Source: Xestospongia bergquistia
Lineage: Eukaryota > Porifera > Demospongiae > Haplosclerida > Petrosiidae
Reading direction: 5' to 3'
DNA: 64,000 nt
NCBI GenBank assembly: GCA_963965975.1
Contig: OZ014417.1
Coordinates: forward strand, 6,878,821-6,942,820
How positions within the stretch are numbered: position 1 is the stretch's first letter; the number at the start of each line of letters is the position of its first letter. Both the position numbers and the translations under genes were made by a program. The notes beneath the pieces were generated by a model. That model was not told the DNA's origin. It saw only the letters and a program-made list of their open reading frames with translations, and searched no databases. Positions 4,643-24,273 of the stretch are shown one piece after another.

Positions 4643-5542
4643 ATGTTCGTTACAACTGTAGCTCTAGTTGTGTGTATATTGCCAGCACTTGTTAACTGTC
4701 AACACTCTCGTCAAGACAAAAAGTCAGGTAAGTCTATCTATAATTGCTACAGCAACATTCTGGTACCGTGGTCAATATTTTGGTAATAAATTTATGCTAT
4801 CCTAAACTAGCCTTCATCCGTTAATTTCGTATACATGTAACTGTATATGTAGCATATTAAAAACTGTGACATCACAATATAATTGTGATTGTACATATAA
4901 TCCTTGTTATCTCATCATGCATGCAGTATAATAACCAAATATTTTGATGTCCTTAGATGTTCCTCTTGCTGGAAAGTGGGAAAGTGATGCTTTTGAAGCT
5001 AAAAAGGCCATAATGTGTATATATCCACACAGTGACAACCCTGGTCAATTTACTGGATGGTACAACACAGGTATTAAAGGAGATATCAAAGACCAATATG
5101 ATTTGGTGGGTAGATATGATGTTGGTGGATCACCACATGAGGGTTATATACTAGGATGGTAAGAAACTTAACAATACATATTTTTTAAAATTACTATATA
5201 TATACTTTTTAATTGATTATAATTTTACAATAGCACATGAAAAGCACAAAATTTACAATGTATAATTAAGACAAATACACATAGTTGCTGCTTAACATTT
5301 ATTAATTACTATTTTACTACTTAAAACTAAATTCATATCAGGTTTGTTATTTAAACAGGACCGTTGTTTGGCGTAATCAGGACAATATTGCTCACTCATC
5401 AAGCTCATGGTCTGGACAAACAACATATGCTGGTACTAGGATCTATTCAATACAGCTCCATTCTAATGTATCAGATGATACATATATGCCATACACCATC
5501 ATAAGCAAAGATGTTTTCAATCAGATTTCTGGCAGCTGCTAA
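4643..5542 (+). CDS. Secreted avidin/streptavidin-like protein AVD1, copy a
   Basis: Exons 4643-4727, 4957-5158 and 5359-5542 join through GT-AG introns in phases 1 and 2 to 156 codons. Residues 1-20 are a signal peptide (TVALVVCILPALVNCQ). The rest is a single avidin fold: GKW strand, FTGWYN, YDLVGRYD, LGWTVVWRN, AHSSSSWSGQ, TRIYSIQ and SKDVFNQ follow the strand order of streptavidin. Intron 2 splits the Trp codon equivalent to streptavidin W79. Retained relative to streptavidin: Y43, W79, S88, W92 and D128 equivalents. Changed: N23 to Ser, S27 to Glu, T90 to Ser, W108 to Gln, and no Trp at the W120 position. The protein ends GSC, with an extra Cys that could form a disulfide. The fold assignment is strong; biotin binding is doubtful. 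A polyadenylation signal AATAAA lies at 5601. Confidence 0.92.
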
Positions 5543-5600
5543 ACATCAAAAATTCACTGTGAACTGCAAACTATAAACTGTATTACAGAATTTAGTGTCA

Positions 5601-5606
5601 AATAAA
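5601..5606 (+). terminator. Polyadenylation signal of AVD1a
   Basis: AATAAA lies 59 bp after the stop codon and is followed by a T-rich stretch. The same hexamer is in the second copy near 20615. Confidence 0.6.
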
Positions 5607-6244
5607 GTTGTTAATGTTGCTTCATTTTTTATTTTAAAAATACTTTTTTTCAGTAGTTATGTAATGCATAATTATAGAATCATAAATGTTGCTCTTAGTA
5701 CATTTTATTTAAATTGTTAATTTAATATGAGAATGCAGTTTCAGTGGTTAGAAAATAATTTCATAGTTCATACCACGTATGCATATTATGATACACACAT
5801 TGTAAGTTAGTGCTTGTGGAGGAATCTATAAGTATAGCTAATACTCCCTGTAACAGTTTTAAGATGGTATAACTGAATGAATCATGACCCATAGTGGGTG
5901 TATAGAAGTGATATATCAACTGGTAGAGTTCAAAGTTTAATCTCTAATGACTTAAATTATAGAATAACAAAAATGTATTGTTATTATTGTTTGAAAAAGG
6001 CTGTCTCAATAATAATTATTACAGCTATATATTAGTTTTTGTCATATTATTTCAATAAAAATGTTTTGAAATATATTATGTGACTTGACAGATAATTAAG
6101 TGAGCTATAATATATAATAAATCATAATGTATAGTTTTGATCATAAATGAATTTTATTAAGGTGAAATGATATCTGAATATTCACATATAAATGTACTGA
6201 CTGGAAATATTTCATACAACAATGCTGAATTGTCAAAGGGAGGA

Positions 6245-6286
<42 letters not shown>

Positions 6287-6699
6287 TAAATATACCAGCT
6301 ACAATAAAACATGTAATCAAACAAATAATATAAAACATGTGCAAATTATATTGATATTGATATTACCAGTTTTTATAATACGCATGGTATCTGTAATATC
6401 ATCTATTGCTTACTTTTGTGCTCAATGCTAGCTTTATTATGGACGAAAACTTTGATATACAAGCATTACAAGTAGCTTATTTTCATATTGAGTTTCTGAG
6501 CAATATTAGTTAATAATATAATGTATGTATAATGTAATGTAATATATTTCTGAGCAATATTAGTTAATAATAAAATAAAAAAAGATGTACAAAATGGGTA
6601 TAAAATCATAATTCTTGTGTGGAATTTTTGGACTTAAACCTGTATATGTACTTATGTATTATAATAGTCTATACAATGATCTTTATTAATTTGAATGAA
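5607..6699. other. Intergenic, with (TA)n at 6247-6283
   Basis: No gene seen. The TA microsatellite near 6247-6283 is longer in the duplicate (21261-21309). Short apparent ORFs here read through the TA run and have no protein character. A 'TTTCTGAGCAATATTAG' motif occurs twice, near 6494 and 6546. Confidence 0.6.
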
Positions 6700-7815
6700 T
6701 CTATATCATGACAGTTTGACGTATTCAGAAACCATTTTAGCTTATTAAATATAATGTCACAATGGTGTAAGATGTTCGTGGAAATGAGTCTTCACTGCAA
6801 TAGTTTGATGTATTCATAAACCTTTCAAACTAATCAAATATAATATCCTATTGGTAAAACAGTTCTTGGAATGAATCTACCCACATGACAGTTTGATGTA
6901 TTTGGAAACCTTTTTAAACAATCAAATATAATGTCCTATTGGTAAAACAGTTCTTGGAATAAATCTATATCATGACAGTTTGATGTATTCAGAAACCATT
7001 TTAGCTTATTAAATATAATGTCACAATGGTGTATGAAGTTCATGGAATGAGTCTTCACTTTTGATGTATTCAGAAACCTTTCATACCAATCAAATATAAT
7101 GCCCTATTGGTAAAACAGTTCTTGGAATGAATCTATATCATGACAGTTTGATGTATTCAGAAACCATTTTAGCTTATTAAATATAATGTCATAATGGTGT
7201 AAGAAGTTCTTGGAATGAATCTACCCACATGACAGTTTGATGTATTTGGAAACCATTTTAAACAATCAAATATAATGTCCTATTGGTAAAACAGTTCTTG
7301 GAATGACCCTATATTATGACAGTTCGATGTATTCAGAAACCATTTTAGCTTATTAAATATAATATCACAATGGTGTAAGAAGTTCTTGGAATGAACCTAC
7401 TCACATGACAGTTTGATGTATTTTGAAACCTTTTTAAACAATCAAATATAATGTCCTATTGGTAAAACAGTTCTTGGAATGAATTTACCCACATGACAGT
7501 TTGATGTATTTGGAAACCTTTTTAAAAAATCAAATATAATGTTAAAACAGTTTTTGGAATAAATCTATATCATGACAGTTTGATGTATTCAGAAACCATT
7601 TTAGCTTATTAAATGTAATGTCACAATGGTGTAAGAAGTTCTTGGAATGAGTCTTCACCGCACTAGTTTGATGTATTCAGAAACCTTTCAAACCAATCAA
7701 ATATAATGTCCTATTGGTAAAACAACAGTTCTTGGAATGAATCTATATCATGACAGTTTGATGTATTCAGAAACCATTTTAGCTTATCAGATATAATGTC
7801 ATGATAGTGTAAACT
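6700..7815 (+). repeat. 87-bp minisatellite upstream of AVD2a, about 13 monomers
   Basis: The marker GATGTATTCAGAAACC (with variants) recurs 13 times from 6718 to 7759 at about 87-bp spacing. Two monomer types alternate: type A with TTTTAGCTTATTAAATAT and a TGTCACAATGGTG segment, and type B with AATCAAATATAATG then TCCTATTGGTAAAACAG. The duplicate array at 21725-22330 has only 7 and is more uniform. Confidence 0.9.
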
Positions 7816-8276
7816 ATCTGAATCTCCATTTGATATAATAATTAAGAACATTTAAAACATGATGTCATTTCGATTGAGTCTTGGTTACTTTAGTTTCATC
7901 AATATAGTATGAGGTGCAGTCCAATACAGAATTATCCACAAAGACAAAACTATAATATCACTCAATATATCCTATCAAATAAAATATCATATGATGATGT
8001 AAACAGTTCACGACAATTTGATGTAATAATAAGTATACATGAATCTGTATAACAATGTTATGATATTTGTTGATTCCCTGGTCAAACAATTTCAGAATAT
8101 AGAAGGCACAGCATACTACAATTCAAGGAAAATCACAATCCAAAGACTATTTACATAAACTAACAATATTATTATGATATTATTGTTATTTTTATATTAT
8201 GTTAATAGATGTTTAACTGATGTTATATACAACAAAACCAATTCAGTCTTAAGTGATTGAAGTAACTAAAATATAA

Positions 8277-8313
<37 letters not shown>

Positions 8314-8383
8314 TACAGCTTCCGTTCTGAGTATTGTAATTTTAACCTAGTAGTACTATGGGCGCTCGTGCTCTCTCGCTGAC
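7816..8383. other. Intergenic upstream of AVD2a, with (TA)n at 8279-8312
   Basis: No gene seen. About 390 bp that unit 2 keeps (22488-22868) is missing at about 7977. The TA run lies about 70-105 bp before the TATA box of AVD2a. Confidence 0.65.
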
Positions 8384-8390
8384 TATAAAA
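8384..8390 (+). promoter_or_regulatory. TATA box of AVD2a
   Basis: TATAAAA preceded by a GC-richer stretch (GGGCGCTCGTGCTCTCTCGC) lies 57 bp before the likely start codon. It is identical in the second copy at 23307-23313. A transcript start about 30 bp downstream would give a short leader. Confidence 0.65.
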
Positions 8391-8446
8391 GGCAGTTTGT
8401 AATTGTGTAGAAGTATCTGATTCGATTATTTTATATGCAACTAATA

Positions 8447-9350
8447 ATGCTCACTAAAGCTGTAATTCTAGTTGTGTGTGTTCTCCCAGCACTGGTTCAC
8501 AGCCAGCGCTCAGTTCATGCAAAGGATCAACAAGATGGTGGTGAGTTTGGCCCTAGCCATAAGTCAATTAACCTCAGCTTCACGATAGGTAAGAAAATTA
8601 TCAAATTTCTTTTATCTTTTAGGTTTAGGAGCAACACCAATCGTCCCATATTTTCTTGCTGGATTGTGGGGGGCTAATTCAGGTGGAGGTCTCATAGTAT
8701 CACATTTGTGTATAAATCGAGAAACTGATAAACCTGGTGTATTTCATGGATGGTTTAGAGACTATTATAATGGAGTTAAAATGGATCAGTATGACGTGTT
8801 AGGAAGATATGACAATGGAGCATCAGAAGAAGGACTTACAATGGGATGGTGAGAAATAACATCATTATAGCAGATGGCATGTCTAGATATAATGGGAACT
8901 TCAGTGAGCTCATGATCACTGAAGTTGTCATTACGCATTACATCTAAATATGCCACTATTCACATCCTCTTTGATTTCAATACACCTCGAGGTCTATTGA
9001 AGTTAAGGAGGATGTAAATAATTACATAAAGAATGATATGTGCTCAACAACATTGTTTTACTTTAATTAATAATAATAATTAAATTTTATTAATAAATAT
9101 TATCTTTCAATTAACAAGGGTTGTGGTGAGACGTAATCAGCACAAGGCTGAAAATAGAACTGATTCGTGGTCTGGAATGTTACAAACAGGTTTTGGCAGT
9201 AGTCGTATCTACTCATGGGTATTCCAAACTACACAGACAGCTGCTATTGATCCCAGTGGATCAACTCATGTTGGTCAACATAACTTTTATCGTATGTTTA
9301 CTAATTGTGAATACGAAGACAATGATAAAAAACAACATAGTGAACTATGA
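8447..9350 (+). CDS. Secreted avidin-like protein AVD2, copy a
   Basis: Exons 8447-8540, 8623-8848 and 9119-9350 join in phases 1 and 2 to 183 codons. A Met at 8435 is in frame, but 8447 gives a signal peptide (MLTKAVILVVCVLPALVHSQ) that aligns with AVD1. The body has LAGLWG, GVFHGWF, YDVLGRYDN, MGWVVVRRNQ, DSWSGM, SSRIYSW and GQHNFYRM, the same strand order as AVD1 and streptavidin. A charged tail of about 18 residues follows. Pocket changes go further than in AVD1: the Tyr43 equivalent is Phe, and the S45, S88 and D128 positions are not conserved; W79 and W92 equivalents remain. A second donor at 8589 would add 16 residues, in phase, but leave a 34-nt intron. Biotin binding is unlikely on these residues; another ligand or a structural role is possible. 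Confidence 0.88.
8876..9018. repeat. Two adjacent foldback hairpins in intron 2 of AVD2a
   Basis: Hairpin 1 (8876-8954) has terminal arms GGCAT/ATGCC and an inner perfect stem AACTTCAGTGA/TCACTGAAGTT around an 8-nt loop. Hairpin 2 (about 8964-9018) has arms ACATCCTC/GAGGATGT closing on ACCTCGAGGT. Both are preserved at 23799-23941. They look like small foldback insertions; a splicing effect is speculative. Confidence 0.75.
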
Positions 9351-9570
9351 TTGAGTCCTATTCCTGTCACAGCTGGCAATCAAACTAATTATAACTATAA
9401 AATTATAGGCCTAGTTTTCATATTTTGATGTTTTCAGTTTCATTACAAAATAGATGAACATGTCTTTGTTATTATTAATTTGATTAAAAGTTAAATATGC
9501 CAGCCAGTTGTGCTGCTATAGATTGAAATAATTGAATATAAAGAAACTGAACTATGCTAGTGATGCAAGT

Positions 9571-9634
<64 letters not shown>

Positions 9635-9892
9635 CATACATATATAATAAGTATGTAATGTATTATTTTAAAAATTCGTCACAGATGCATCCTACGTCAG
9701 TGAGATGATAACACTGAATAGCAATCAAGTCTAAATAAACTTATACTTCCGTGTATTATACAGATATTCAAGACAGATATAAGTGAACAGCAGCTGAAGA
9801 AAACAGTTTATGCATTCTAAATGTTATTTAACAGCCTGAAATTTGAATGAAGAAGTGGATGGAAGTACCATGTGACTGTCGTTACGCGTTGG
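9351..9892. other. 3' flank of AVD2a with a long (TA)n and a shared relic repeat
   Basis: A (TA)n run lies at about 9573-9632. The segment at 9757-9850 (ATTCAAGACAGATAT...AACAGCAGCTGAA) recurs at about 15240, 24664 and 25616, so each unit holds two dispersed copies. No gene seen. Confidence 0.6.
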
Positions 9893-10020
9893 ATCAATAT
9901 GATATGGATCAATATAATGGATCAATATGATATGTTGGGAAGATATGACAATGAAGCATCAGAAAAAGGACTTACAATGGATGGTGAGAAATAAGATCAT
10001 TATGGCAGATGGCATGTCTA
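9893..10020 (+). pseudogene. Remnant of a third avidin-like gene (AVD3), unit 1
   Basis: Only part of exon 2 remains: the frame reads a DQYDMLGRYDNEASEKGLTM-like segment, close to AVD2, followed by the same donor region and intron hairpin start. A G is lost in the terminal GGATGG compared with unit 2. Upstream there is only a small GGATCAATAT repeat, with no signal peptide exon. The retrotransposon inserted just downstream. Confidence 0.8.
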
Positions 10021-10059
10021 GACATAATGGTGAGTTCATGATCACTGAAGTTGTCATGC

Positions 10060-10181
10060 TGTAGGATAGTAATTAACATTAATTAACATCAATTAACATT
10101 AATAGTTAATAAACTAGAGCACATGTTGTTTAGAACTGATTGTTTTTGTAAATTGTTTTTGTTGAGGAATATTATATTACA
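10060..10181 (+). repeat. 5' LTR
   Basis: 122 bp, TGTAGGATAG to TATTACA, identical to the 3' copy as far as I can read. Unusually short for a Ty3/gypsy LTR. Confidence 0.93.
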
Positions 10182-10182
10182 C

Positions 10183-10193
10183 TGGTAGCAGAG
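10183..10193 (+). promoter_or_regulatory. Primer binding site, initiator-Met tRNA type
   Basis: TGGTAGCAGAG begins two bases after the LTR and is the complement of the CTCTGCTACCA 3' end of animal initiator tRNA-Met. Confidence 0.75.
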
Positions 10194-10199
10194 TCTGAG

Positions 10200-11057
10200 A
10201 TGGCAGATAGGCATGTGGCCTTACCTAAAACTATTAAGGATGGCGATGAACTAGATGAGTGGTTAGTGAAGTTTGATATATGTGCTAATTCCAATGGATG
10301 GGATAATGACAAAAAGGCAAGTAAAATCCCGACATTTCTCGAAGGAGAAGTTCTGGTAGCCTACCTAGAGATGGCGGACGAAGATAAGACAGATTACTCT
10401 ACATTGGTGAGAGCATTGAGGGCAGAATTTCGAACAAAAGAAACGCGTTTTCAGGTAATGAGAGAGTTCGAACGCCGTAGGCTTTTGCCGGGAGAACCCC
10501 CACGTGTTTTTTTGTATAACCTTAAGAGACTACTTGAAATAGCCATGCCAGAGTTAACTGGGGAGGCGAAGGAACAAATGTTACTCCATCACTTCATTGA
10601 CGGTCTCCCAACGGAAATTGCCAAACTAATGCGATCTTCGCCAGCTGATATCACGACTACCAAAGATGCTTTAGCAAAAGCACGCTTGCTCATGATGAAC
10701 AATGAACAGTTACCTGAGGAAGCAGCACATCTTACCACTTCGTCAGTTACTGGCAGTACTCCTGGTTTACAGAAACTAGAAGAGATGATACTTGATATTG
10801 GTGCCAGACTTGATTCATTAGAAAGTGACAGCCGAGACACTAGTATTGCTGCAGTCAGATATCAGAATAAACCGAAAAAAGCAACCAATATCCATTCCCA
10901 GCAATGCTACAGGTGTCAACAATTTGGGCACATTGCAAAGAATTGCCGTAATACCCTTCAATGTTTTAACTGTGGCAAATACGGTCACACAAATGCCCAG
11001 TGTTGGGGAAACGCCAACCGGTCGTCTCTACAGGCCAGGGGAGGCGACCGGAAGTAA
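10200..11057 (+). CDS. gag: Retrotransposon Gag with two zinc knuckles
   Basis: 285 residues starting right after the primer site. Residues about 1-165 form an alpha-helical capsid-like region ([10 protein letters not shown], then a [12 protein letters not shown] segment typical of Ty3/gypsy Gag). A linker follows, then two CCHC knuckles ([14 protein letters not shown] and [14 protein letters not shown]). The reading frame has no breaks. Gag would assemble the particle that holds the RNA. Its 3' end overlaps the protease frame by about 55 bp and carries a canonical -1 slip site. Confidence 0.93.
11006..11012 (+). promoter_or_regulatory. -1 ribosomal frameshift site (G GGA AAC)
   Basis: In the Gag frame the heptamer reads G GGA AAC directly after the second zinc knuckle, in the X XXY YYZ form used by retroviral gag-pro junctions. 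A -1 slip here enters the protease frame. I did not establish a downstream pseudoknot. Confidence 0.75.
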
Positions 11058-11700
11058 TACACTTGGCCTCGACATTGGATATGCCTGTAAATATTAAACG
11101 ACTCTCAAAAATATCAGGAAAAATACGAGATATTCACTGTGCTATTTTATTAGACAGTGGTTCTTCTGTATCGTTAATTAGTCAACACTTGCTTGAACAA
11201 GCCAGCTTGAGTTATAACTCAATAGCATCCTCTATAAATGTTATCACAGCTTCCTGCAATGAGATGGAATTATGCAACACTACCATTGTACCTCTTCATA
11301 TAGGTACATTGTCTGTGACACATGAGATGTATGTTGCCCCTCAACTGGTTGCACCTGTCATTTTGGGTACTGATTTCTTGGCCAAATTCAATGTCTGTTT
11401 AGACTACAAGACAAAATCTGTTACTGTCAATGGTACAACTGTAGTTCCAAATGTGGACTACGGGGAGAACACAACATGGTCAAAGAAAAAGCTATGGGAA
11501 AACTCCTACCACACAGCTGCTATTTTATCAGGAGACGAAGATGATACTGAAAATTGTGCCATACCACGTTTCACTCATCCAGGTAAATCTACACTACCTG
11601 CCTCTTCTGATGCATACATGGATATAATTAAGGAATATAAATCCCTGTTTTGCTCTGTCCCAGGAAAACCGACGCAATATACCATCATATTCCGACGGGG
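11013..11700 (+). CDS. pro: Retrotransposon aspartic protease
   Basis: This frame is -1 relative to Gag. It holds the [12 protein letters not shown] catalytic motif and the downstream [11 protein letters not shown] element of retropepsins. The meaningful part ends near 11690, where the sequence homologous to Ty3/gypsy elements continues in yet another frame; the frame itself stays open to 11863. Its product would cleave the Gag and Pol precursors. Confidence 0.85.
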
Positions 11701-14430
11701 AACTCTAAACCAATACGTGTCCCTCCAAGACGAATACCAGTGCACTATAAGGAAGAGGTTCAACAACAAATTGCTGAAATGTTGGAACAAGGCATTATAC
11801 AAGAAAGTAGTAGCCCTTGGCTGGCACCCTGTGTATTCGTGCCGAAGCGAAATGGTGAAATAAGAATTTGTATTGACTATCGCGAACTCAACAAACAGAC
11901 TGAAAAAAATAGCTATCCCTTACCTTTACCCGATGAAGTACAAGATCATTTAGGGAATGCACAAGTATTTACTAAGTTGGACTGCAGGAAAGGGTTTTGG
12001 CAAGTCCCTATCACACCTGAAGACCAAGCAAAAACAGCCTTTTCACCAGGCCCAGGTATGGGGTTATTTGAATTTCTTCGATTACCTTTTGGTCTTACAG
12101 GGTCACCTGGAACATTTCAGCGGTTAATGGACCGTGTACTTCGGGGGTTACCCTTCGCAATGGTTTATGTAGATGATATTTTGGTATATTCTAGTGATGA
12201 AAGAAGCCACAAACAACACCTCAGACAAGTTTTTCAGAGATTAGTAGATTATGGTCTGACCTTGCATGGAGAAAAATGTGCTATTGGGGTGCAAGAAGTT
12301 TCCTACCTTGGTCACACCTTTACAAAACACGGTATGATACCAGATCCCAATAAAGTGAAAGCTATTCAGAATTGGCCAACCCCCTCTTCGGTTACAGAGG
12401 TGCAGAGGTTTCTGGGCTTGGCTTCATATTACCGAAGATATATAAAAAATTTTGCCAACATTGCCTCTCCCCTCTATCATCTTACTAATAAAGGTGTAAC
12501 ATTCCAATGGACAAATCCTTGTCAAGAAGCCTTCACCACACTTAAAATCTGCTTAATTTCTCAACCTATTTTAAAATGTCCTGACTTCTCCTTACCCTTT
12601 ACCCTATACACCGATGCTAGTGACTCAGGGTTGGGAGCTGTATTACAACAAGGACCTAACGTTATCGCTTATAGTAGTCGGTCGCTGAAGCCAGCCGAAA
12701 AAAATTACAGCGTCATCGAAAAAGAGTGTTTAGCTCTGGTTTATGCTATTAAGTACTTTAAACACTACCTCTTGGGGCATTGTTTCACTGTGTATACAGA
12801 TCACAACCCACTACAGTGGTTGTCTGCACAGAAGATGGAAGGAAAGTTAAGCCGTTGGGCTTTGCAACTTCAAGAGTTTGAATTTAAAATTCTTTATAGA
12901 AAAGGTACCCACAATGCGAATGCTGATGCTTTGTCACGGCAACCTTGTACAGCTGCTACAAAAGTCATTTGTGGACCTAGTGAAAGTGAACTGATTAAGG
13001 AACAGACTAATGATCCAATTCTAGCAAAAATCATTTCATACATCAAGACAAACGGTAACAAAAAACCTCAAGGTACAGAATGGAAACACCCACAATACAG
13101 AAGGTGGCTTCAACTATGGCCCCAACTCAAGTTACAGAATGGTGTTCTTTATCGCTGTATTATTAAACCTGATAGTAAAGAGCAGCGTCTAGTGCCAATA
13201 GCACCATTAAGTCTCAAAGCAACTTATCTACAACAATTTCATGATGCTCCTTTAGGTGCTCATCAAGGGTATATGAAAACATTACTGAGATTACAAGAAA
13301 ATGTGTACTGGGTTGGAATGGCAACAGATACTCAAAATTACTGCGACTCTTGTGATGCTTGCAATCAAGCAAAACCAGCACTACCCCAGCCGGTCCCATT
13401 GGTAAATATGCCTATGGGTAAACCTTGGGAAATGTTAGGAGTGGATATTCTAAAAGTACCTATGTCGTGTCAGGGCAATTCTTATATCTTAGTTATACAA
13501 GACTACTTCACTAAATGGCCTGTGGCCATTCCCCTGAAGGATCAAACAGCAGAAGGTACAGTTAAAGCTCTCGTTGAAACCTTTAGTATTTATGGCATAC
13601 CTACTTATATTCACTCTGACCAGGGAGCTAATTTTGAGAGCACACTTTTAAAAGAGACATGCCGGGCTTTTGGAATTCATAAATCACGAACCACACCCTA
13701 TCATCCCCAAGGTGATGGTTTAGTGGAGCGCACCAATCGCTCCTTATTGCAGATGTTAAGGACATATTGTGTTAAATCCAGTGATTGGGAGAAATGGCTG
13801 CCTCTTCTCCTATATGCCTACCGATCCTCAACGCACACATCTACTAAATGCTCACCATATCTTTTAATGTTTGGTAGAGAACCCACACTTCCATCTGATT
13901 TACCTGGACTATCCACAGACACATATGTTTATTCTAAACAACTCCAACGTCAGTTAAGTCAGATGTATGAATTAGTTGAACTGCACCTTATCGATGCAGC
14001 ATCTACTCAGAAGAAGACATATGACACTCGGGCTCATACTAGGTCACCATTTCAAGTGGGTAATCATGTTTGGTTATCCAAACCAACAGCTGGAAAGCTC
14101 TGTTCAAGATGGGAGAGTGGATGGACTGTTTTGGAACACAATTCAGGTCAACCAACTGTCATAATTGCACACTCAGATGGACGAAAGAAGACAGTTCATA
14201 TAAATCGTTTACGGCTCCATACTCTTAGATCAGTTCCTAAAGGAATGCCACGGCATTCTCCAACATATTGGCAGCCACCTTCTTTTGAACATTCTGTTTG
14301 TGAGTCTGAAGATGAATTATCTAACAATTACCCATTAGAAGAACCTTCCACTTCTCGACCTACCCGCACACGCAGAGTTCCGGATAGATATGCCCCCTAT
14401 GTCACATTGTCGCTCGAGACGAGCTCTTGA
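11641..14430 (+). CDS. pol: Retrotransposon reverse transcriptase, RNase H and integrase
   Basis: One open frame from the in-frame stop at 11638 to 14430, about 930 residues. RT: the RVPPRRIP region, then YVDD at 12166-12177. RNase H: YTDASDSGLGA, an EKECLA helix and a TDHNPLQWL strand, ending in NADALSR. Integrase: an HHCC zinc-binding region (near 13250-13370), then a DDE core with VDILK, HSDQGANF and a Glu in GLVERTNR. No chromodomain is seen at the C-terminus. The frame is -1 relative to protease, but I see no canonical slippery heptamer in the usable overlap (11641-11690). Either an unusual recoding signal is used or this copy has a 1-2 nt indel near 11675-11685. Confidence 0.93.
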   Translation: MPVLLCPRKTDAIYHHIPTGNSKPIRVPPRRIPVHYKEEVQQQIAEMLEQGIIQESSSPWLAPCVFVPKRNGEIRICIDYRELNKQTEKNSYPLPLPDEVQDHLGNAQVFTKLDCRKGFWQVPITPEDQAKTAFSPGPGMGLFEFLRLPFGLTGSPGTFQRLMDRVLRGLPFAMVYVDDILVYSSDERSHKQHLRQVFQRLVDYGLTLHGEKCAIGVQEVSYLGHTFTKHGMIPDPNKVKAIQNWPTPSSVTEVQRFLGLASYYRRYIKNFANIASPLYHLTNKGVTFQWTNPCQEAFTTLKICLISQPILKCPDFSLPFTLYTDASDSGLGAVLQQGPNVIAYSSRSLKPAEKNYSVIEKECLALVYAIKYFKHYLLGHCFTVYTDHNPLQWLSAQKMEGKLSRWALQLQEFEFKILYRKGTHNANADALSRQPCTAATKVICGPSESELIKEQTNDPILAKIISYIKTNGNKKPQGTEWKHPQYRRWLQLWPQLKLQNGVLYRCIIKPDSKEQRLVPIAPLSLKATYLQQFHDAPLGAHQGYMKTLLRLQENVYWVGMATDTQNYCDSCDACNQAKPALPQPVPLVNMPMGKPWEMLGVDILKVPMSCQGNSYILVIQDYFTKWPVAIPLKDQTAEGTVKALVETFSIYGIPTYIHSDQGANFESTLLKETCRAFGIHKSRTTPYHPQGDGLVERTNRSLLQMLRTYCVKSSDWEKWLPLLLYAYRSSTHTSTKCSPYLLMFGREPTLPSDLPGLSTDTYVYSKQLQRQLSQMYELVELHLIDAASTQKKTYDTRAHTRSPFQVGNHVWLSKPTAGKLCSRWESGWTVLEHNSGQPTVIIAHSDGRKKTVHINRLRLHTLRSVPKGMPRHSPTYWQPPSFEHSVCESEDELSNNYPLEEPSTSRPTRTRRVPDRYAPYVTLSLETSS

Positions 14431-14444: not shown

Positions 14445-14566
14445 TGTAGGATAGTAATTAACATTAATTAACATCAATTAACATTAATAGTTAATAAACT
14501 AGAGCACATGTTGTTTAGAACTGATTGTTTTTGTAAATTGTTTTTGTTGAGGAATATTATATTACA
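14445..14566 (+). repeat. 3' LTR
   Basis: Identical to the 5' LTR. Preceded by the polypurine tract at about 14429-14441 and followed by the ATGC target duplication. Confidence 0.93.
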
Positions 14567-14637
14567 ATGCCATTACCTATTACATCTAAAATTTGATATG
14601 CCACTATTCACTTCCTCTTTGATTTCAATACACTTTA

Positions 14638-14795
14638 TTACAATTTTTGTCCTGGTTTCCCAACCATTTGCTTCATCATATTTTGTTGATCAAGGTCTCT
14701 TTTCTTCTTCATAGCCTCCTGTCTTCTTTTTGTTTGTTTATGTTTTGGCAAAGATTCACATGTTTGACAAAGATAGCTTTCTAAAGGACTTACTT
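14638..14795 (-). pseudogene. 3' fragment of the Lys-rich secreted peptide gene
   Basis: On the minus strand this matches the 3' half of the gene at 26746-27109: the C..CESLPK region, the Lys/Arg-rich stretch and the KMMKQM..KPG tail. The signal peptide exon is absent, and small indels are present. The sister fragment is at 25018-25168. Confidence 0.7.
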
Positions 14796-15849
14796 ATTTA
14801 AGTGAAACATGCATAGGATGGAGTCTTCTCAAAGAGTCTTCTCAAGAGGTGAACAACAAATATTAATTCCCTTTAAAAAACACCATAATGAATAATTTGT
14901 GATAAACAATGTATCTCTTAATGATTAATAGAGCAGATTGTTCTAATATTATACTTTACTAACAGTTATAACTTTTTCTGCATCCTAAACTTCATGTTTG
15001 CTATTCAAAATTAAGGTGCGACGAGCTGTTGAACAGGAAATGAACAATTGCTTTACATTTTAAATGTTAAAATCAAATGAATGTTTTATTATTAATATTA
15101 TTGAATCTGTATTATTTAACTGGTTGTTCTTTATCATTCAGTATAATTATTAACATCCATATTACTTTCAATATTATATGGAAAACCACATCTATATATT
15201 AATAATTAAATGTAATGTTTACAATCATATATATTACACATATATTCAAGACAGATATCAATGAACAGCAGCTGAAACAAACAGTTCATGCATTCTACAT
15301 TTTATTTAACAGCCTCAATAATTTGAGCGAAGAAGGGATCACGAGACTCAGTCTGTATACGTATCTTTAAAATAGGCGGTGCCTGTTATAGTTGATCGGC
15401 CCTGTCAGCAAAAGTCTGGAGACAATATTACTGTCACCAATCTTCTGTTTGCTCTATCCAGGTAATACTATCTCTTATCGCTTGTTAAAGTTCTACTGGA
15501 AAGTATAGTTTCTTAGATTCTCACTTACAAATCACTTTGTTTCTAATATTGTAGAACAAGAAAAGTAATAATCAATAAACAATCATACTATCTAATTATA
15601 AATACCCATATGTCATAAATTCACAGAACATAGCATCCCAGGTGGAAAATTACAAGAAAAACGCGATGGTCATGACAATAGTATTGTTATAATTGATTAT
15701 ATTTATATAATAATTAACTCAAAGACATATTGATTTTTTCTAGTTAATTTATATTAAAGGAGGCAAAGTAAACAATTAGTCCACACTTTAAAATTTTATT
15801 GCATGACTACTTGATAATGTCATATTAGTAGTTAGCTGTTTGATTCTGT
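14796..15849. other. Non-coding DNA between relic genes, unit 1
   Basis: No gene seen. The part near 14881-14980 (CACCATAATGAA...GATTAATAGAGCAGA) also occurs near 25260, 29751 and, more weakly, 31923. It travels with the Lys-rich peptide genes as their former flank. About 270 bp (15440-15710) are absent from unit 2. Confidence 0.55.
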
Positions 15850-16239
15850 ATGTTAATGATTAAAAGGTTCTTCACATTAATGTTTGCATCTATAATATTG
15901 TTATGTTTAATGGATGCATTTAACCATTTTTATGCACTTTTAATGATGACTATAACTAGTAATAACATCACTAGTGCCAAAACAAGATTATGGATTAGAA
16001 TTATAGCTAAGTTGTTGATATATCAGAAACAGCTGCATAACTGCCACACCTCAACTATATCTTCTCCACCATATCATTTTTATAAAACAACACAAGTAAA
16101 CTTAACTAGTTCTAGGAACCAGACTAAAATTTTGAAAAATTGGAACCAGTGCTATTGTTGCAGCTGTTATGATCTGATCTTGATCATTATTATGTTATTT
16201 TTATGTAATAAACCGGATATTGCTAATTATCATAATTGA
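15850..16239 (+). pseudogene. Relic of the two-TM gene, unit 1
   Basis: An open frame of 129 codons exists here and in the duplicate (25961-26350). Its 3' part aligns with the DNA of the C-terminal region of the intact gene at 766-2062 in a shifted frame, with an indel in the T/A-rich GAAAAATTGG segment. I read it as a relic rather than a gene, although the frame is kept in both copies. Confidence 0.55.
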
Positions 16240-17263
16240 TAATTGCTTTATATTAATTTATTATTTGATGATAGAACATATATTGTTTGTGGCATAACAA
16301 CACACACTGTATATATATGAGTCCTTTCTTGAAATACATACTAGCTCACTTCTTTGCTGAATAAATGATAGACATGCTTGTTTTTGAATTTGAGATTGTT
16401 AGAATAGCTTTGTAGTTAATGCATCTTTTGAAAATAAACAAACCCTTTAATTAATTACCCAAAATTAACCTCATAAATCAATTTTACAAGAGTATATCAA
16501 TCATGAAATTTGCAATGTTTACTTATTATGAAGTTCAACAAAGCAACACAAACCCAAATGTTTATTTCATTTTACTTTTACTATGTATACATTAGCCTAG
16601 AATTTTGAAAAATTGGAACCAGTGTTGCTGTTGTACTTTGCAGGTGTTATAATCTTATTTTCATCATTATCATATTATTCTTACATAGTAAAATACATTT
16701 ATATTATATATTTATTCAGCTTTCGTCCATTACCTACCTACTGTATAATGTATATCAATGATATGTCCATTACAGCCTCAACGTAATCATCTTCATTACA
16801 ATTACTTTATATTTTATCATTATTATTACTTCAAGAGTAATCAACTACAATTACAACTACTTTACTATAATTACAAGGTTTTATATCTAGGAGTCATATT
16901 TGTATTAACACAGTAGTTTAACTATATATTCATAGTCAAGGGTGGCTTTCCCAATACTAATTGAATATAATATTGTGAATGTTATCAACTACAAGGACAA
17001 TTACTGCAATTTTTAGCAGACAATTACGATTAAAATACAATTATTGTAAAAACTATAACTAATTGCAAACAATTACAATTACCCATTAAAGGGTAACAGA
17101 AATGATTTTTTGTCATACTGTTTTTGTTATCTAATTAAATTGTTTTGTTTCTCAAATGAAGAAAGCAAAATGCTTTTTAATTAAATTCACCGTACTTTTC
17201 CAGAAATTCTATTTCCAAGTTGTAGTACCAAATCATAATTCCGTTTGAGGGCGTGACTATACG

Positions 17264-17271
17264 TGACGTCA
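17264..17271. promoter_or_regulatory. CRE palindrome in the left end of the TIR element
   Basis: TGACGTCA, a full cAMP-response element, lies 38 bp upstream of the start codon of the P2X7-ballast-like gene. A mirror copy lies at 18871-18878 before the THAP gene. Confidence 0.5.
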
Positions 17272-17308
17272 TAGTAGTATAACGGAAGTAGTCAGTAGAG
17301 GAGATTGA

Positions 17309-17951
17309 ATGGAACTTGAGTGTAGTGATTGTGATTCTTATATTGATGATCCAATACAGCCTTATCAGTTTGACCCTAGTGGTATATACAAGTGGAGACT
17401 TATCTGACTCTGATGAAGAACTAGGACAAGGGGATAATGAACGACTATCTCAGCTTTCCTGGTCGGATAAAAATATTCAAGTGTATATATATATTTACTA
17501 TTTTGCTAAAGGTGTTCATGTCAGAACTATCAGATAATGACATCTGCACAAGAATGTATATGTTGTAAAGAGATTCCAGCTAGCAAAAATAGCACTCCTA
17601 GTATATGTATTACTAAACACCCAGGATTTCATGCTGTGTGTCTGAACATATGGGTACTACAGGTAGCTTATTATCAGTACAGACAACAGTATGGATCATT
17701 AGCTTCACCAATGAATGAGCATGCTCATTATGTTATGTTGTCATGAATACATCAATTCCTATAGGCGTTACAGATATACAGCATATCGACAATTGACAAG
17801 ATGGTGTTGGGGTTGGCTGGGAAAAGAAGTAAAAGTTGTTCTTCCTTCCTGTGCAGCAACAAAAATCCGGGAGACATTTTTCACACAGACTGGTCACTAT
17901 GTAGGATTTAAATACCCAAATTGTCGTAATGATCTTTCAACATTTACATGA
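17309..17951 (+). CDS. P2X7 C-terminal ('ballast') domain protein, probably broken
   Basis: The N-terminus reads MELECSDCDS...PIQPYQFDP. Then CSCQNYQ and ECICCKEIP (Cys pairs), CITKHPGFHAVCLN.WVLQ.AYYQYR, and finally YRYTAYRQLTRWCWG, VVLPSCAATKIR and GFKYP. These are the signature segments of the zinc-binding C-terminal domain of vertebrate P2X7 receptors, which in invertebrates also occurs without a channel. No channel domain is present here. The pieces lie in different frames. A short intron ending TGCTAAAG before 17510 fits one gap; a frame change near 17390-17400 and another near 17735-17765 do not splice cleanly. So this copy may be a pseudogene. Confidence 0.7.
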
Positions 17952-17954
17952 ATA

Positions 17955-18835
17955 TTATTTATCATGAAATCTTTTCTTATGTTCCAATATTGCTTTCCCT
18001 TTCTCGGGATGGGAAAAGCTATCACTTAGTGGTGGTGGAACTATATCCATGCTGGTGTCATGCCTTTCATTTCTCCTGGCCAATTTGATGGCTTCTTTTA
18101 GAATTTCCTTGACATAGTCTATACATATAAAAATAAATAACAGATGACAAATTACATAATACAAATGAACTCACTGAAAGTTGGTGCTTGTAGTATTTTT
18201 TTTTATTACATATACTCCTTTCTTGTACTTTGGAAAGGATATAGCAAACTGTTCCATGCCCAATTTAGTCTTAGCAAGTTTTCTCTTAGAATTTTCATTA
18301 AAATGCATAGCTGCAAGTAGTGTTCTATATATAATGATTTAAAATAATAAATCAAAATTTAAATACTCCCAACCTTGATTCGTTCCCTTAAATGAAGAAG
18401 TAGTTGATTTTGGCAGGAAATGGATCATGACACTATGAAAACCTTCTAAAGAAGTCTGATAGAGAGGAGAGAGTTTCTTTATGTCTTTCAAAAACCGAGT
18501 GTTTCTTATCAGAGGTCAGGTATGACTTTTTCACTAGCTTTGGTGTCAGTATCTAATCTTCTCTTAAAGATAGTTGGAACAGCTTTAGATTTCAACTTCC
18601 TTCTCAGTTTTATACCAAATGAATGTTGAATTAGTGAGCTTTGTTTGTAGCAGTCATCTGTGAAATGATTACTACAAAGACTACTATTTTCTGATGGACC
18701 ACTCCAACGATCTCTAGTGCGTTTAACTTGCTCTATCCATTTCTTTCTCAGTACTGGATCTTTGGGAAACTTATATAGGGTAACCTCATCACTGGGAATG
18801 CTAGAACAACCAGCTTCAACACATCTGTTAGGCAT
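17955..18835 (-). CDS. THAP zinc-finger protein, truncated transposase relic
   Basis: The first exon (18835 down to about 18510) encodes a THAP domain: CVEAGC at the N-terminus, the conserved FPKDP and W, SSLCSNHF with the second C-x2-H pair, and the AVPTIF end motif. Further 3' on the minus strand, segments FLKDIKKLSP.YQTSLEGFHS, MHFNENSKRKLA, FPKYKKGVYV and DYVKEILKEAI follow, in a pattern I associate with the C-terminal part of THAP-containing transposon-like proteins of invertebrates and fish. Introns near 18150 and 18350 join them. No catalytic core lies between the two parts, so the encoded protein should bind DNA but not transpose. It is convergent with the P2X7-domain gene, a few bases apart. 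Confidence 0.7.
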
Positions 18836-18870
18836 TTCTTAGTCCCATGTGTAGAAATGTGTTACTACTT

Positions 18871-18878
18871 TGACGTCA
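18871..18878. promoter_or_regulatory. CRE palindrome in the right end of the TIR element
   Basis: TGACGTCA, 36 bp before the THAP start codon, is the mirror counterpart of 17264-17271. Confidence 0.5.
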
Positions 18879-19497
18879 CGGAAGTAACGCCCACGAGACT
18901 GGGCAATATAATTATTTCACCAATACATTTTATAGATTTCTGCAATAGCATGACTAGTATTGCACTAATTTTTTATATATTTGTATGTTACTACAAAGTC
19001 TTTCATTTTAATCAGAATATGAAAACCATTTCTGTTACCCTTTAAAGTTACCCCAACACTGGTAAACATCACTCTGTTCTCATGACAAGTTGTTTAGTTA
19101 AAATAGAGTTTATATCTTAATTAATTACAATAATTACCATTATCCAATCACTGATGTATATGCACATATAATTCTTATAAAAGACTATTTTACTAAAACA
19201 TACACACCCACCATTTAATAGACTGTTTGTTAGCTGTTGTCTGGTTATCTGAGTATATGAAGACATACAGTCAATGACTGTTCCCTTGCTATCATCAACA
19301 AAGGACTAAATCATTACTTGTAATTTAATGATTCCAAAAGAGTCATTCAAGTATAATTGCATTATAGTGTAAACAATTCTTAGAAAGAATCAGTCATTGA
19401 CTTTTAATATAATTTATATGAAGTCCCTCCTACATACAATTTACTACTACTCCGAGTCTACTCAAGTTTCATAAGGGAGGGGCTGGATACGCAAGAC

Positions 19498-19504
19498 TAT
19501 ATAG
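19498..19504 (+). promoter_or_regulatory. Probable TATA element of AVD1b
   Basis: TATATAG, same context and spacing as 4514-4520. Confidence 0.45.
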
Positions 19505-19626
19505 TCAGGACTACAGGTAAAAGAGATTTTAAGTTTTTTCGCCCAGACTTACAGTCATTTTGGACGTATATAACTAAAGAAGATTTCACTACAAACACTA
19601 GCTAAAAATTTAAAAGCAGTGACATT

Positions 19627-20556
19627 ATGTTCGTTTCAACTGTAGCTCTAGTTGTGTGTATATTGCCAGCACTTGTTAACTGTCAACACTCTCGTCAAGA
19701 CAAAAAGTCAGGTAAGTCTATCTATAATTGCTACAGTAACATTTCTGGTACCGTGGTCAATATTTTGGTAATAAATTTATGCTATCCTAAACTGGCCTTC
19801 ATCCGTTAATTTCGTATACATGTAACTGTATATGTAGCATATTAAAAACTGTGACATCACAATATAATTGTGATTGTACATATAATCCTTGTTATCTCAT
19901 CATGCATGCAGTATAATAACCAAATATTTTGATGTCCTTAGATGTTCCTCTTGCTGGAAAGTGGGAAAGTGATGCTTTTGAAGCTAAAAAGGCCATAATG
20001 TGTATATATCCACACAGTGACAACCCTGGTCAATTTACTGGATGGTACAACACAGGTATTAAAGGAGATAACAAAGACCAATATGATTTGGTGGGTAGAT
20101 ATGATGTTGGTGGATCACCACATGAGGGTTATATACTAGGATGGTAAGAAACTTAACAATACATCTTTTTAAAATTACTATATATATACTTTTTAATTGA
20201 TTATATTTTATAATACCATTTATATACTCAATTATATTTTACAATAGCACATGAAAAGCACAAAATTTACAATGTATAATTAAGACAAATACACATAGTT
20301 GCTGCTTAACATTTATTAATTACTATTTTACTACTTAAAACTAAATTCATATCAGGTTTGTTATTTAAACAGGACCGTTGTTTGGCGTAATCAGGACAAT
20401 ATTGCTCACTCATCAAGCTCATGGTCTGGACAAACAACATATGCTGGTACTAGGATCTATTCAATACAGCTCCATTCTAATGTATCAGATGATACATATA
20501 TGCCATACACCATCATAAGCAAAGATGTTTTCAATCAGATTTCTGGCAGCTGCTAA
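19627..20556 (+). CDS. Secreted avidin/streptavidin-like protein AVD1, copy b
   Basis: Exons 19627-19711, 19942-20143 and 20373-20556, with the same lengths and phases as copy a, encode 156 residues. I count two protein differences: Thr4 to Ser in the signal peptide and an Ile to Asn change in the loop after the second strand (KGDIKD versus KGDNKD). Otherwise the fold motifs and the altered pocket match copy a. Intron 2 is slightly longer because of an AT-rich insertion. Near identity suggests a young duplication or ongoing gene conversion. Confidence 0.92.
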
Positions 20557-21260
20557 ACATCAAAAATTCACTGTGAACTGCAAACTATAAACTGTATTAC
20601 AGAATTTAGTGTCAAATAAAGTTGTTAATGTTGCTTCATTTTTTATTTTAAAAATACTTTTTTTCAGTAGTTATGTAATGCATAATTATAGAATCATAAA
20701 TGTTGCTCTTAGTACATTTTATTTAAATTGTTAATTTAATATGAGAATGCAGTTTCAGTGGTTAGAAAATAATTTCATAGTTCATACCACGTATGCATAT
20801 TATGATACACACATTGTAAGTTAGTGCTTGTGGAGGAATCTATAAGTATAGCTAATACTCCCTGTAACAGTTTTAAGATGGTATAACTGAATGAATCATG
20901 ACCCATAGTGGGTGTATAGAAGTGATATATCAACTGGTAGAGTTCAAAGTTTAATCTCTAATGACTTAAATCATAGAATAACAAAAATGTATTGTTGTTA
21001 TTGTTTGAAAAAGGCTGTCTCAATAATAATTATTACAGCTATATATATTAGTTTTTGTCATATTATTTCAATAAAAATGTTTTGAAATATATTATGTGAC
21101 TTGACAGATAATTAAGTGAGCTATAATATATAATAAATCATAATGTATAGTTTTGATCATAAATGAACTTTATTAAGGTGAAATGATATCTGAATATTCA
21201 CATATAAATGTACTGACTGGAAATATTTCATACAACAATGCTGAATTGTCAAAGGGAGGA

Positions 21261-21314
<54 letters not shown>

Positions 21315-21724
21315 TAAATATACCAGCTACAATAAAACATGTAATCAAACAAATAATATAAAACATGTGCAAATTATATTGATATTGATATTACCAGTTT
21401 TTATAATACGCATGGTATCTGTAATATCATCTATTGGTTACTTTTGTGCTCAAAGCTAGCTTTATTATGGACGAAAACTTTGATATACAAGCATTACAAG
21501 CTATTATTTGAGCTTTTTTTCATATTGAGTTTCTGAGCAATATTAGTTAATAATATAATGTATGTATAATGTAATGCAATATATTTCTGAGCAATATTAG
21601 TTAATAATATAATAAGATGTACAAAATGGGTATAAAATCATAATTCTTGTGTGGAATTCTTGGACTTAAACCTGTATATGTACTTATGTATTATAATAGT
21701 CTATACAATCTTTATTAATTTGAA
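20557..21724. other. 3' flank of AVD1b with (TA)n at 21261-21309
   Basis: Duplicate of 5543-6699; polyadenylation signal AATAAA near 20615. No gene seen. Confidence 0.6.
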
Positions 21725-22330
21725 TGAATCTATATCATGACAGTTTGACGTATTCAGAAACCATTTTAGCTTATTAAATATAATGTCACAATAATGTAAG
21801 AAGTTCATGGAATGAGTCTTCACCGCACTAGTTTGATGTATTCAGAAACCTTTCAAACCAATCAAATATAATATCCTATTGGTAAAACAACAGTTCTTGG
21901 AATGAATCTATATCATGACAGTTTGATGTATTCAGAAACCATTTTAGCTTATTAAATATAATGTCACAATAATGTAAGAAGTTCATGGAATGAGTCTTCA
22001 CCGCACTAGTTTGATGTATTCAGAAACCTTTCAAACCAATCAAATATAATGTCCTATTGGTAAAACAACAGTTCTTGGAATGAATCTATATCATGACAGT
22101 TTGATGTATTCAGAAACCATTTAGCTTATTAAATATAATGTCACAATAATGTAAGAAGTTCATGGAATGAGTCTTCACCGCACTAGTTTGATGTATTCAG
22201 AAACCTTTCAAACCAATCAAATATAATGTCCTATTGGTAAAACAACAGTTCTTGGAATGAATCTATATCATGACAGTTTGATGTATTCAGAAACCATTTT
22301 AGCTTATCAGATATAATGTCATGATAGTGT
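21725..22330 (+). repeat. 87-bp minisatellite upstream of AVD2b, 7 monomers
   Basis: The marker GATGTATTCAGAAACC (first copy GACG) recurs at about 21747, 21835, 21924, 22012, 22100, 22187 and 22276. Strictly alternating A and B monomers form a nearly identical dimer of about 177 bp. Unit 1 has about 13. Confidence 0.9.
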
Positions 22331-22487
22331 AAACCATCTGAATCTCCATTTGATATAATAATTAAGAACATTTAAAACATAATGTCATTTCGATTGAGTC
22401 TTGGTTACTTTAGTTTCATCAATATAGTATGAGGTGCAGTCCAATACAGAATTATCCACAAAGACAAAACTATAATATCACTCAATA

Positions 22488-22868
22488 CATAAAGCTAATT
22501 TAAGAGACCAAAAATAATCCAATTATTAAAGCCATGCGCAAGAGATGTATACATTGTTTCAATTGAACTAACCACTAATCATGTACAAGTATGTTCATAT
22601 GACATTGTCTGCAAATTTTAAACTGTATACTTGAATATCTCACATGATAAAGTACTTAAAGCAAAATTAATAAATTATTTTGTCAAATGCAATCTAAAAT
22701 AACACACTATTTTTACAGTAATGTCATGATGATATAAACAATGAATTTACACTGCAACAGTTTGATGTGACCAGAAACTATTTTATCCTAGTGTCACAAT
22801 ATGTAAACAGTTTGTAGAATAAATCTACACAGTGACAATTCGATGTAATGAAAAAAACATTATTCTTA
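22488..22868. other. Segment kept only in unit 2, with decayed minisatellite monomers
   Basis: Unit 1 jumps from TCACTCAATA directly to TATCCTATCAAAT at 7977. Here about 380 bp intervene, the last part of which contains decayed forms of the 87-bp monomer (CAGTTTGATGTGACCAGAAAC). So unit 1 suffered a deletion. Confidence 0.7.
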
Positions 22869-23189
22869 TCCTATCAAATATAATGTTATATGATGATGTA
22901 AACAGTTCACGACAATTTGATGTAATAATAAGTATACATGAATCTGTATAACAATGTTATGATATTTCTTTACTCCCTGGTCAAACAATTTCAGAATATA
23001 GAAGGCACAGCATACTACAATTCAAGGAAAATCACAATTCAAAGACTATTTACATAAACTAACAATATTATTATGATATTATTGTTATTTTTATATTATG
23101 TTAATAGATGTTTAACTGATGTTATATACAACAAAACCAATTCAGTCTTAAGTGATTGAAGTAACTATAATATAATATAATATAATATA

Positions 23190-23236
<47 letters not shown>

Positions 23237-23306
23237 TACAGCTTCCGTTCTGAGTATTGTAATTTTAACCTAGTAGTACTATGGGCGCTCGTGCTCTCTC
23301 GCTGAC

Positions 23307-23313
23307 TATAAAA
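23307..23313 (+). promoter_or_regulatory. TATA box of AVD2b
   Basis: TATAAAA, identical context to 8384-8390. The (TA)n just upstream is longer here and preceded by a TAATA run. Confidence 0.65.
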
Positions 23314-23369
23314 GGCAGTTTGTAATTGTGTAGAAGTATCTGATTCGATTATTTTATATGCAACTAATA

Positions 23370-24273
23370 ATGCTCACTAAAGCTGTAATTCTAGTTGTGT
23401 GTGTTATCCCAGCACTGGTTCACAGCCAGCGCTCAGTTCATGCAAAGGATCAACAAGATGGTGGTGAGTTTGGCCCTAGCCATAAGTCAATTAACCTCAG
23501 CTTCACGATAGGTAAGAAAATTATCAAATTTCTTTTATCTTTTAGGTTTAGGAGCAACACCAATCGTCCCATATTTTCTTGCTGGATTGTGGGGGGCTAA
23601 TTCAGGTGGAGGTCTCATAGTATCACATTTGTGTATAAATCGAGAAACTGATAAACCTGGTGTATTTCATGGATGGTTTAGAGACTATTATAATGGAGTT
23701 AAAATGGATCAGTATGACGTGTTAGGAAGATATGACAATGGAGCATCAGAAGAAGGACTTACAATGGGATGGTGAGAAATAACATCATTATAGCAGATGG
23801 CATGTCTAGATATAATGGGAACTTCAGTGAGCTCATGATCACTGAAGTTGTCATTACGCATTACATCTAAATATGCCACTATTCACATCCTCTTTGATTT
23901 CAATACACCTCGAGGTCTATTGAAGTTAAGGAGGATGTAAATAATTACATAAAGAATGATATGTGCTCAACAACATTGTTTTACTTTAATTAATAATAAT
24001 AATTAAATTTTATTAATAAATATTATCTTTCAATTAACAAGGGTTGTGGTGAGACGTAATCAGCACAAGGCTGAAAATAGAACTGATTCGTGGTCTGGAA
24101 TGTTACAAACAGGTTTTGGCAGTAGTCGTATCTACTCATGGGTATTCCAAACTACACAGACAGCTGCTATTGATCCCAGTGGATCAACTCATGTTGGTCA
24201 ACATAACTTTTATCGTATGTTTACTAATTGTGAATACGAAGACAATGATAAAAAACAACATAGTGAACTATGA
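23370..24273 (+). CDS. Secreted avidin-like protein AVD2, copy b
   Basis: Exons 23370-23463, 23546-23771 and 24042-24273 mirror copy a and encode 183 residues. The only protein difference I see is Leu to Ile in the signal peptide (VCVLPALV versus VCVIPALV). Introns are the same length as in copy a, including the two foldbacks in intron 2 and the alternative donor at 23512. The replaced ligand-pocket residues are the same as in copy a. Confidence 0.88.

Follow-up and report, generated by a model that had tools for sequence, protein, structure and literature searches.

A recently duplicated pair of avidin-family genes with altered biotin pockets in the sponge Xestospongia bergquistia

Described avidins and the sponge genes

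Avidins are among the best-studied binding proteins, and their natural roles are still debated. Not every animal avidin domain binds biotin; that of sea urchin fibropellin, a multi-domain protein with EGF repeats, does not. Here we describe two types of avidin-family gene, A and B, each present twice in a window of 64,000 nucleotides of the Xestospongia bergquistia genome (contig OZ014417.1, positions 6,878,821 to 6,942,820; G000:C7:6878821-6942820 in our numbering), and compare them with two further family members on other contigs, the C9 and C2 genes.

Among the closest described systems, streptavidin of Streptomyces is the best solved-structure match to A, B and the C9 gene, and its GRYD, LGW, W.N and WSGQ stretches are common to A and C9, with fewer of them in B; it differs in that the sponge genes have introns and that A and B are without most of the pocket residues. 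Vertebrate avidins such as zebavidin, for which the biotin-binding residues are described as largely retained, are likewise single-domain products of split genes, the first two exons of zebavidin (87 + 211 bp) being close in length to those of A (85 + 202 bp), but with four exons in place of the three in the sponge genes (PMC3811995). Invertebrate examples in print include an avidin-like gene that marks an epithelial cell type in Hydractinia (PMC11876637) and an avidin family transcript that is the most raised matched gene in the haemocytes of schistosome-resistant snails (PMC3963999). A preliminary description of the window, made from its sequence, knew of no avidin family in sponges; in keeping with this, the literature on sponges and cnidarians, by titles and abstract openings with few subscription papers among them and hence weakly, yielded no description of a sponge avidin among the papers listed. 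The sponge genes are, in our view, new additions to a familiar protein family, set apart by two unusual traits: loss of the pocket in a tandem pair and C-terminal tails in -EL in three of four gene types.

The reading we prefer, with a probability of about 0.68, is that Xestospongia carries a recently duplicated A-B pair of animal avidin-family genes that have been repurposed away from tight biotin binding, with the C9 gene capturing biotin. A and B would pass through the secretory pathway and adopt the avidin barrel; without tight biotin binding, they would be retained for some other binding or structural job, in the manner of the fibropellin avidin domain, and biotin capture would fall to the C9 gene.

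Splice models place four intact genes within 4643-24273, all on the forward strand and in the order A1, B1, A2, B2 (Table 1), and the spliced exon translations give products of 156 (A) and 183 (B) residues. The introns are GT-AG throughout, intron 1 in phase 1 and intron 2 in phase 2, the latter interrupting the Trp codon of a GW motif, and the reading frames are open in all four copies. For type B, the models cover the coding part up to 9349 (B1) or 24272 (B2), the final base of the stop codon being added from open reading frame (ORF) data. Three claims of the preliminary description are thereby borne out: four intact intron-containing genes of two types, conserved intron phases 1 and 2, and residence in the host genome, with which the introns and signal-like N-termini on an 8.3-Mb contig of a sponge agree. 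Others need narrowing. Its count of four holds for the loci, which are really one A-B pair and a very recent copy of it. The segments LGWTVVWRN, AHSSSSWSGQ and GRYD that it had singled out all occur in type A, whereas type B has GRYD but GWVVVRRN in place of LGWTVVWRN. The label 'secreted' fits the hydrophobic, signal-peptide-like N-terminal segments of A and B (Kyte-Doolittle 11-residue maxima of 3.0 and 3.2); for B, however, an HSEL ending makes secretion uncertain.

By sequence, A and B are avidins. Scored with a profile of 57 further avidin rows, which include no gene from this genome, A reaches 56.0 bits and B 44.0 bits; the top score among 2,000 shuffled versions of the two is 10.0 bits. 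On Pfam Avidin (PF01382), the check named in the preliminary description, the outcome is divided: B passes with 26.6 bits (curated cut-off 24), as does the C9 gene with 83.7 bits, but A has no match to any Pfam family at E up to 1 despite its score on the custom profile, and the Pfam model was for that reason dropped as sole avidin test. The same scan found Avidin alone in B and EGF repeats in neither type, so that, unlike fibropellin, A and B show no additional domain. In phmmer searches of PDB chains, type A matches the single-domain streptavidin chain 4dne at 1.8e-11 and type B matches 7cpz (streptavidin C1) at 2.8e-7, with fusion chains of two domains scoring higher for both; the C9 gene matches 8zr1 at 7.3e-25. 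We infer that A and B fold as avidin barrels.

Two further avidin loci lie outside the window among the candidates scored, these being the best 11, 12 and 12 from searches of the 146.5-Mb assembly (21 contigs) for which the A, B and C9 proteins served as queries (E up to 10), a selection in which distant copies could be missed. The C9 gene (C9:6329945-6330530, reverse strand) is intact, and the C2 gene (C2:10424782-10425299, reverse strand) has a premature stop in exon 3. Intact copies of the C2-type gene exist, since the ORF P0021, which aligns with the C2 gene at 64 of 68 residues, is without a stop at that place. A Pfam-profile search of the genome recovered exons of the C2 and C9 genes and none of the A or B genes. 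In both outside genes, the GW intron agrees with that of A and B in codon and in phase, and two cysteines are common to A, B and C9. Their intron 1, read by eye, comes after merely 14 (C2) or 8 (C9) coding bases. A and B share an exon 1 unlike that of C9 and C2 (14 of 29 residues equal, with the intron-1 phase also common) and we accordingly prefer to view them as a tandem pair, a point on which the tree described below is neutral.

Duplication and origin of the A-B pair

The A-B pair was most likely duplicated once, recently, as a tandem unit of 10-13 kb. The two units, which abut without a gap in a window with zero N, differ by 0.9-2.1% substitutions in five aligned blocks. The copies of type A show 2 differences in 471 bases of coding sequence and 3 substitutions in 429 bases of intron; B1 and B2 differ at 1 of 551 coding bases and by 1 substitution over the whole of 8447-9350, introns included, as against 12 in 416 bases at 9640-10055. 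Intron 2 of B has no substitution in 270 bases. With introns and exons alike to about the same degree, this near-identity is most simply put down to gene conversion or youth. A Ty3-type long terminal repeat (LTR) element with identical 122-base LTRs and a 4-base target duplication (read by eye) occurs in unit 1 only, and its empty site is kept in unit 2, so that the insertion probably postdates the duplication.

An assembly artefact, in which two haplotypes were placed end to end, could also leave substitutions at this level between the copies and an LTR element in just one of them. We consider it unlikely, as the end of one unit directly meets the start of the other at a gap-free junction (16594) and a chimeric contig join would be needed.

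For the phylogeny, 36 of 41 bacterial or archaeal loci were translated (L059, L060, L070, L081 and L083 being left out), and 28 of these entered the tree, without the near-copies L050, L052, L053, L055 and L058 and the weak matches L086-L088; together with 32 of 120 avidin matches picked by hand, the tree comprises 66 rows over 121 columns. The best tree unites the four sponge rows in a single group (93/69), apart from the Actinomycete streptavidins. Adjoining it are P0027, P0001, rows of the P0035 type and a set that takes in a gene of the soft coral Dendronephthya gigantea (LOC114531992, P0006), at 84/77 for the 16 rows; the label 'animal-like' for these neighbours rests on P0006 and, for the others, on long contigs and ORF structure. 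P0006 differs from the sponge genes in having no -EL ending, and in its closest ORFs on that tree, P0024 and P0025 among them, the frame is continuous across the GW codon that is split by an intron in the sponge genes. The approximately unbiased (AU) test rejects neither a grouping of the sponge genes with streptavidin (p 0.113; 20.7 log units worse) nor one of A and B as sisters (p 0.511), and a grouping with chicken-type avidin is neither shown nor rejected (p 0.157).

On these sequences, an old animal avidin appears a better reading than transfer of the ancestor of the sponge genes. The statement in the preliminary description that segments of the genes fit bacterial streptavidin better than chicken avidin holds in so far as streptavidins head the solved-structure matches, but the sponge genes fall beside animal-like avidins in the best tree, and the AU test leaves both alternatives standing. 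Horizontal transfer from a bacterial streptavidin, with introns gained later, would account for those structure matches and for the unrejected grouping; we nevertheless hold it to be improbable, given the position of the sponge genes beside animal-like avidins including that of Dendronephthya and the cost in log units of the forced tree, a cost that comes from only 121 columns. A recent transfer from Streptomyces was also considered and is disfavored by the best tree and the same 20.7 log units, though not by the AU p value.

Biotin pocket, C-terminal tails and possible roles

Identity was scored in a MAFFT alignment with streptavidin at 21 positions that we take to be its biotin contacts. The C9 gene keeps 19 of 21, A 7 and B 3, with loop 1 gapped in A and B so that positions 23-27 are uncertain; as yardsticks in the same alignment, L048 (Amycolatopsis) keeps 20, P0001 18 and P0006 (Dendronephthya) 16 of 21, and the C2 gene, not counting the position of its stop, keeps 15 of 20. 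A retains the equivalents of Tyr43, Gly48, Trp79, Ala86, Ser88, Trp92 and Asp128 and loses those of Asn23, Trp108 and Trp120, among others. In B, the equivalents of Asn23, Tyr43, Ala86, Trp108 and Trp120 are among those lost, and Arg stands in place of both Trp79 and Ser88, Asp in place of Thr90 and His in place of Asp128. The Arg at Trp79, a position that we take to be equivalent to Trp70 of avidin, is also found in fibropellin, and B thus carries the first of two fibropellin-type changes. In chicken avidin, these two changes by themselves (Trp70 to Arg and Trp110 to Lys), modelled on non-binding fibropellin, virtually demolished binding (PMC8033661). B very likely has no affinity for biotin, and A would bind it at most weakly; the C9 gene is the likely biotin binder of the family. 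The genome holds a natural series, from a near-complete pocket (C9) through a partly eroded one (A) to one almost wholly rebuilt (B).

With most contacts gone in A and nearly all in B, the earlier suggestion of nutrient sequestration by the four window genes is not supported. Its explicit form, in which A and B are working biotin-binding avidins that starve microbes of biotin, we regard as improbable. Their avidin homology and the raised avidin transcript of resistant snails (PMC3963999) are in its favor, as is the fact that biotin is a shared commodity in Xestospongia muta, where biotin-synthesis transcripts are assigned to symbionts (Poribacteria, Bacteroidetes) and holocarboxylase synthetase transcripts to the host (PMC4412061). 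However, both types have lost the Trp108 and Trp120 equivalents, B has the four replacements listed above, and the C9 gene, which keeps the site, would serve better. Because symbionts transcribe biotin synthesis and the host holocarboxylase synthetase, a host biotin binder could buffer, take up or withhold symbiont-made biotin, and a sponge with biotin-making symbionts and a biotin-using host enzyme offers a setting for testing the role of an animal avidin (PMC4412061); the word avidin is absent from the text of that paper. Defense is a possible alternative role, by analogy with the snail haemocyte transcript (PMC3963999) and the avidin-positive epithelial cells of Hydractinia (PMC11876637).

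The C-termini add a second trait. The C9 gene ends in SDEL, B in HSEL, C2 in NTEL and A in GSC; the PROSITE pattern for endoplasmic reticulum (ER) retrieval is fitted by SDEL and only in part by HSEL and NTEL. Three of four C9-type exon-3 ORFs from other sources also end in SDEL (P0002, P0019 and P0022), with variable linkers just before it. P0021, the C2 counterpart, ends in CEL, P0120 in NTEL, P0044 in AEL, P0042 in KNEL and P0049 in KTEL, and the last two have frames that apparently open at this GW intron; P0042, P0049 and P0120 may extend the observation beyond Xestospongia. In all, -EL endings occur in 9 of 120 avidin matches and, in a further difference from streptavidin, in none of the 36 translated bacterial or archaeal loci.

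These endings look like ER-retrieval tails kept in part of the avidin family. SDEL of C9 and HSEL of B would then suggest, for some members of the family, retrieval to the ER in place of free secretion, and the tails, if they work as retrieval signals, would point to an intracellular job. An ER-retrieved avidin would, if true, be a new arrangement, since known eukaryotic avidins are described as secreted (PMC8033661). No literature on tolerated retrieval tetrapeptides was found, and papers joining avidin and KDEL concern, by their titles and abstract openings, recombinant expression, labelling or other subjects. A more specific and tentative proposal, unlikely as a whole but deserving mention, is an intracellular avidin system in which ER-retrieved C9 (-SDEL) captures or buffers symbiont biotin in the secretory or phagocytic pathway and the fast-diverging tandem paralogues A and B bind other ligands.

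Besides the gapped loop, several points weigh against our preferred reading of a pair repurposed away from biotin. With seven contacts kept, namely Tyr43, Gly48, Trp79, Ala86, Ser88, Trp92 and Asp128, weak biotin binding by A is possible, and biotin binding is in general hard to predict from residue changes, as the study of the chicken avidin variants warns (PMC8033661). HSEL and NTEL are non-canonical retrieval signals, type A is without such an ending, and P0023, one of five C9-type sequences, is without SDEL. All three coding differences between the copies are replacements, and the close similarity of the copies could not serve as evidence of purifying selection, the B introns being as alike as the exons.

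Some of these observations would also suit decay, that is, A and B as duplicates heading to pseudogenes, with the loss of the pocket as plain erosion. The three replacements, the long branches in the best tree (A 1.23, B 1.94), the premature stop in the C2 gene and orphan exon fragments near both B copies are what such a process might leave behind. We judge it quite unlikely nonetheless: no frame among the four is interrupted, their splice sites are intact, their N-termini are signal-like, the two cysteines persist in A, B and C9, and exon 3 of B is found in an independent sequence (P0020) with 69 of 74 aligned residues equal, its frame and HSEL ending kept.

Other features of the window and genome

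Feature coordinates are given in Table 1. Upstream of A, a second TATA-like pattern match lies 129 bases 5' of the start codon, and more such matches upstream of B fall inside a TA repeat. Downstream of B, the sole signal common to both copies is ATTAAA (9483 and 24406; pattern match). The stretch 24804-25010, at the orphan B-type fragment of unit 2, is 83% identical to 8781-8985 in a self-comparison of the window.

Table 1 Features of the A-B locus in the 64-kb window (positions counted from its first letter)
Feature	Coordinates	Strand	Details	Basis
Gene A1, type A	4643..5542	+	exons 4643-4727, 4957-5158, 5359-5542; 156 aa	splice model + homology
Gene B1, type B	8447..9350	+	exons 8447-8540, 8623-8848, 9119-9350; 183 aa, C-terminus HSEL	Pfam Avidin
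Gene A2, type A	19627..20556	+	exons 19627-19711, 19942-20143, 20373-20556; 2 replacement differences vs A1	
Gene B2, type B	23370..24273	+	exons 23370-23463, 23546-23771, 24042-24273; 1 replacement difference vs B1	
Unit 1 of tandem duplication	3477..16594		carries A1, B1, LTR element	self-comparison
Unit 2 of tandem duplication	16594..26705		carries A2, B2	self-comparison
Ty3-type LTR element	10060..14566	+	unit 1 only; zinc knuckle + pol domains	
TATA-like box, A1	4583..4588	+	60 bases 5' of A1 start codon; equal spacing in A2 (19567)	pattern match only
TATA-like box, B1	8384..8389	+	63 bases 5' of B1 start codon; equal in B2 (23307)	pattern match only
AATAAA	5601..5606	+	3' of A1; counterpart 20615 after A2	pattern match only
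Orphan end of B-type exon 2, unit 1	9917..9982	+	G000:C7:6888737-6888802	protein search match
Matching orphan B-type fragment and intron-like sequence after it, unit 2	24801..25010	+	G000:C7:6903621-6903707	protein search match

Between the A and B genes lies a minisatellite, with a period of ~88 bases and 12.8 copies in unit 1 (6693-7813); its counterpart in unit 2 (21722-22332) has a 178-base period and 3.4 copies. About 1.9 kb at 17091-19016 is found in unit 2 only and includes a THAP-domain ORF (18509-18838, reverse strand), possibly transposon-derived.

Beyond the duplication, on the reverse strand, two small ORFs resembling each other, by eye secreted-looking and with basic tails, lie at 26746-27108 and 30034-30417; the first has no Pfam match, and related stretches occur near 14635 and 25012. 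A tandem family of large genes occupies 33370-60589 (reverse strand), with repeated stretches 73-96% alike, and the domains in four scanned ORFs of it are VWA_4 (two), fn3 and Kunitz. A tyrosine-kinase-like gene is represented by ORFs at 62693-63903 (reverse strand), where 63102-63458 matches PK_Tyr_Ser-Thr at 3e-27.

Elsewhere in the assembly, contig C21 (18,997 bases) carries cox1 and a neighbouring nad1 (read with code 4). Among the best 120 of 4,659 matches, this nad1 is 100% identical over 314 residues to that of X. muta (P0122; Porifera, Demospongiae, Haplosclerida, Petrosiidae), the next named sources being Acanthella acuta at 86% and Spongilla lacustris at 85%. Congeners may have an identical nad1 protein, which makes X. 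muta a probable species assignment only, yet a firmer pointer to the host than the silicatein-like genes below. Fragments of cox1 also occur in a nuclear contig (L090-L095; G000:C6, 3.15-3.20 Mb), some with TAA and TAG stops, and are probably nuclear mitochondrial copies. A 69-residue silicatein fragment, used to look for a sponge marker, gave 18 genome matches; of the eight silicatein-like genes in which motifs were read, L030-L032 have the cathepsin-type CGSCWAF, L034 and L038 have SYAF, and L035 with L047, L039 and L040 have CYAF. Silicatein-like exons, two of them with an SYAF active-site region, agree with a siliceous demosponge, although this is only suggestive.

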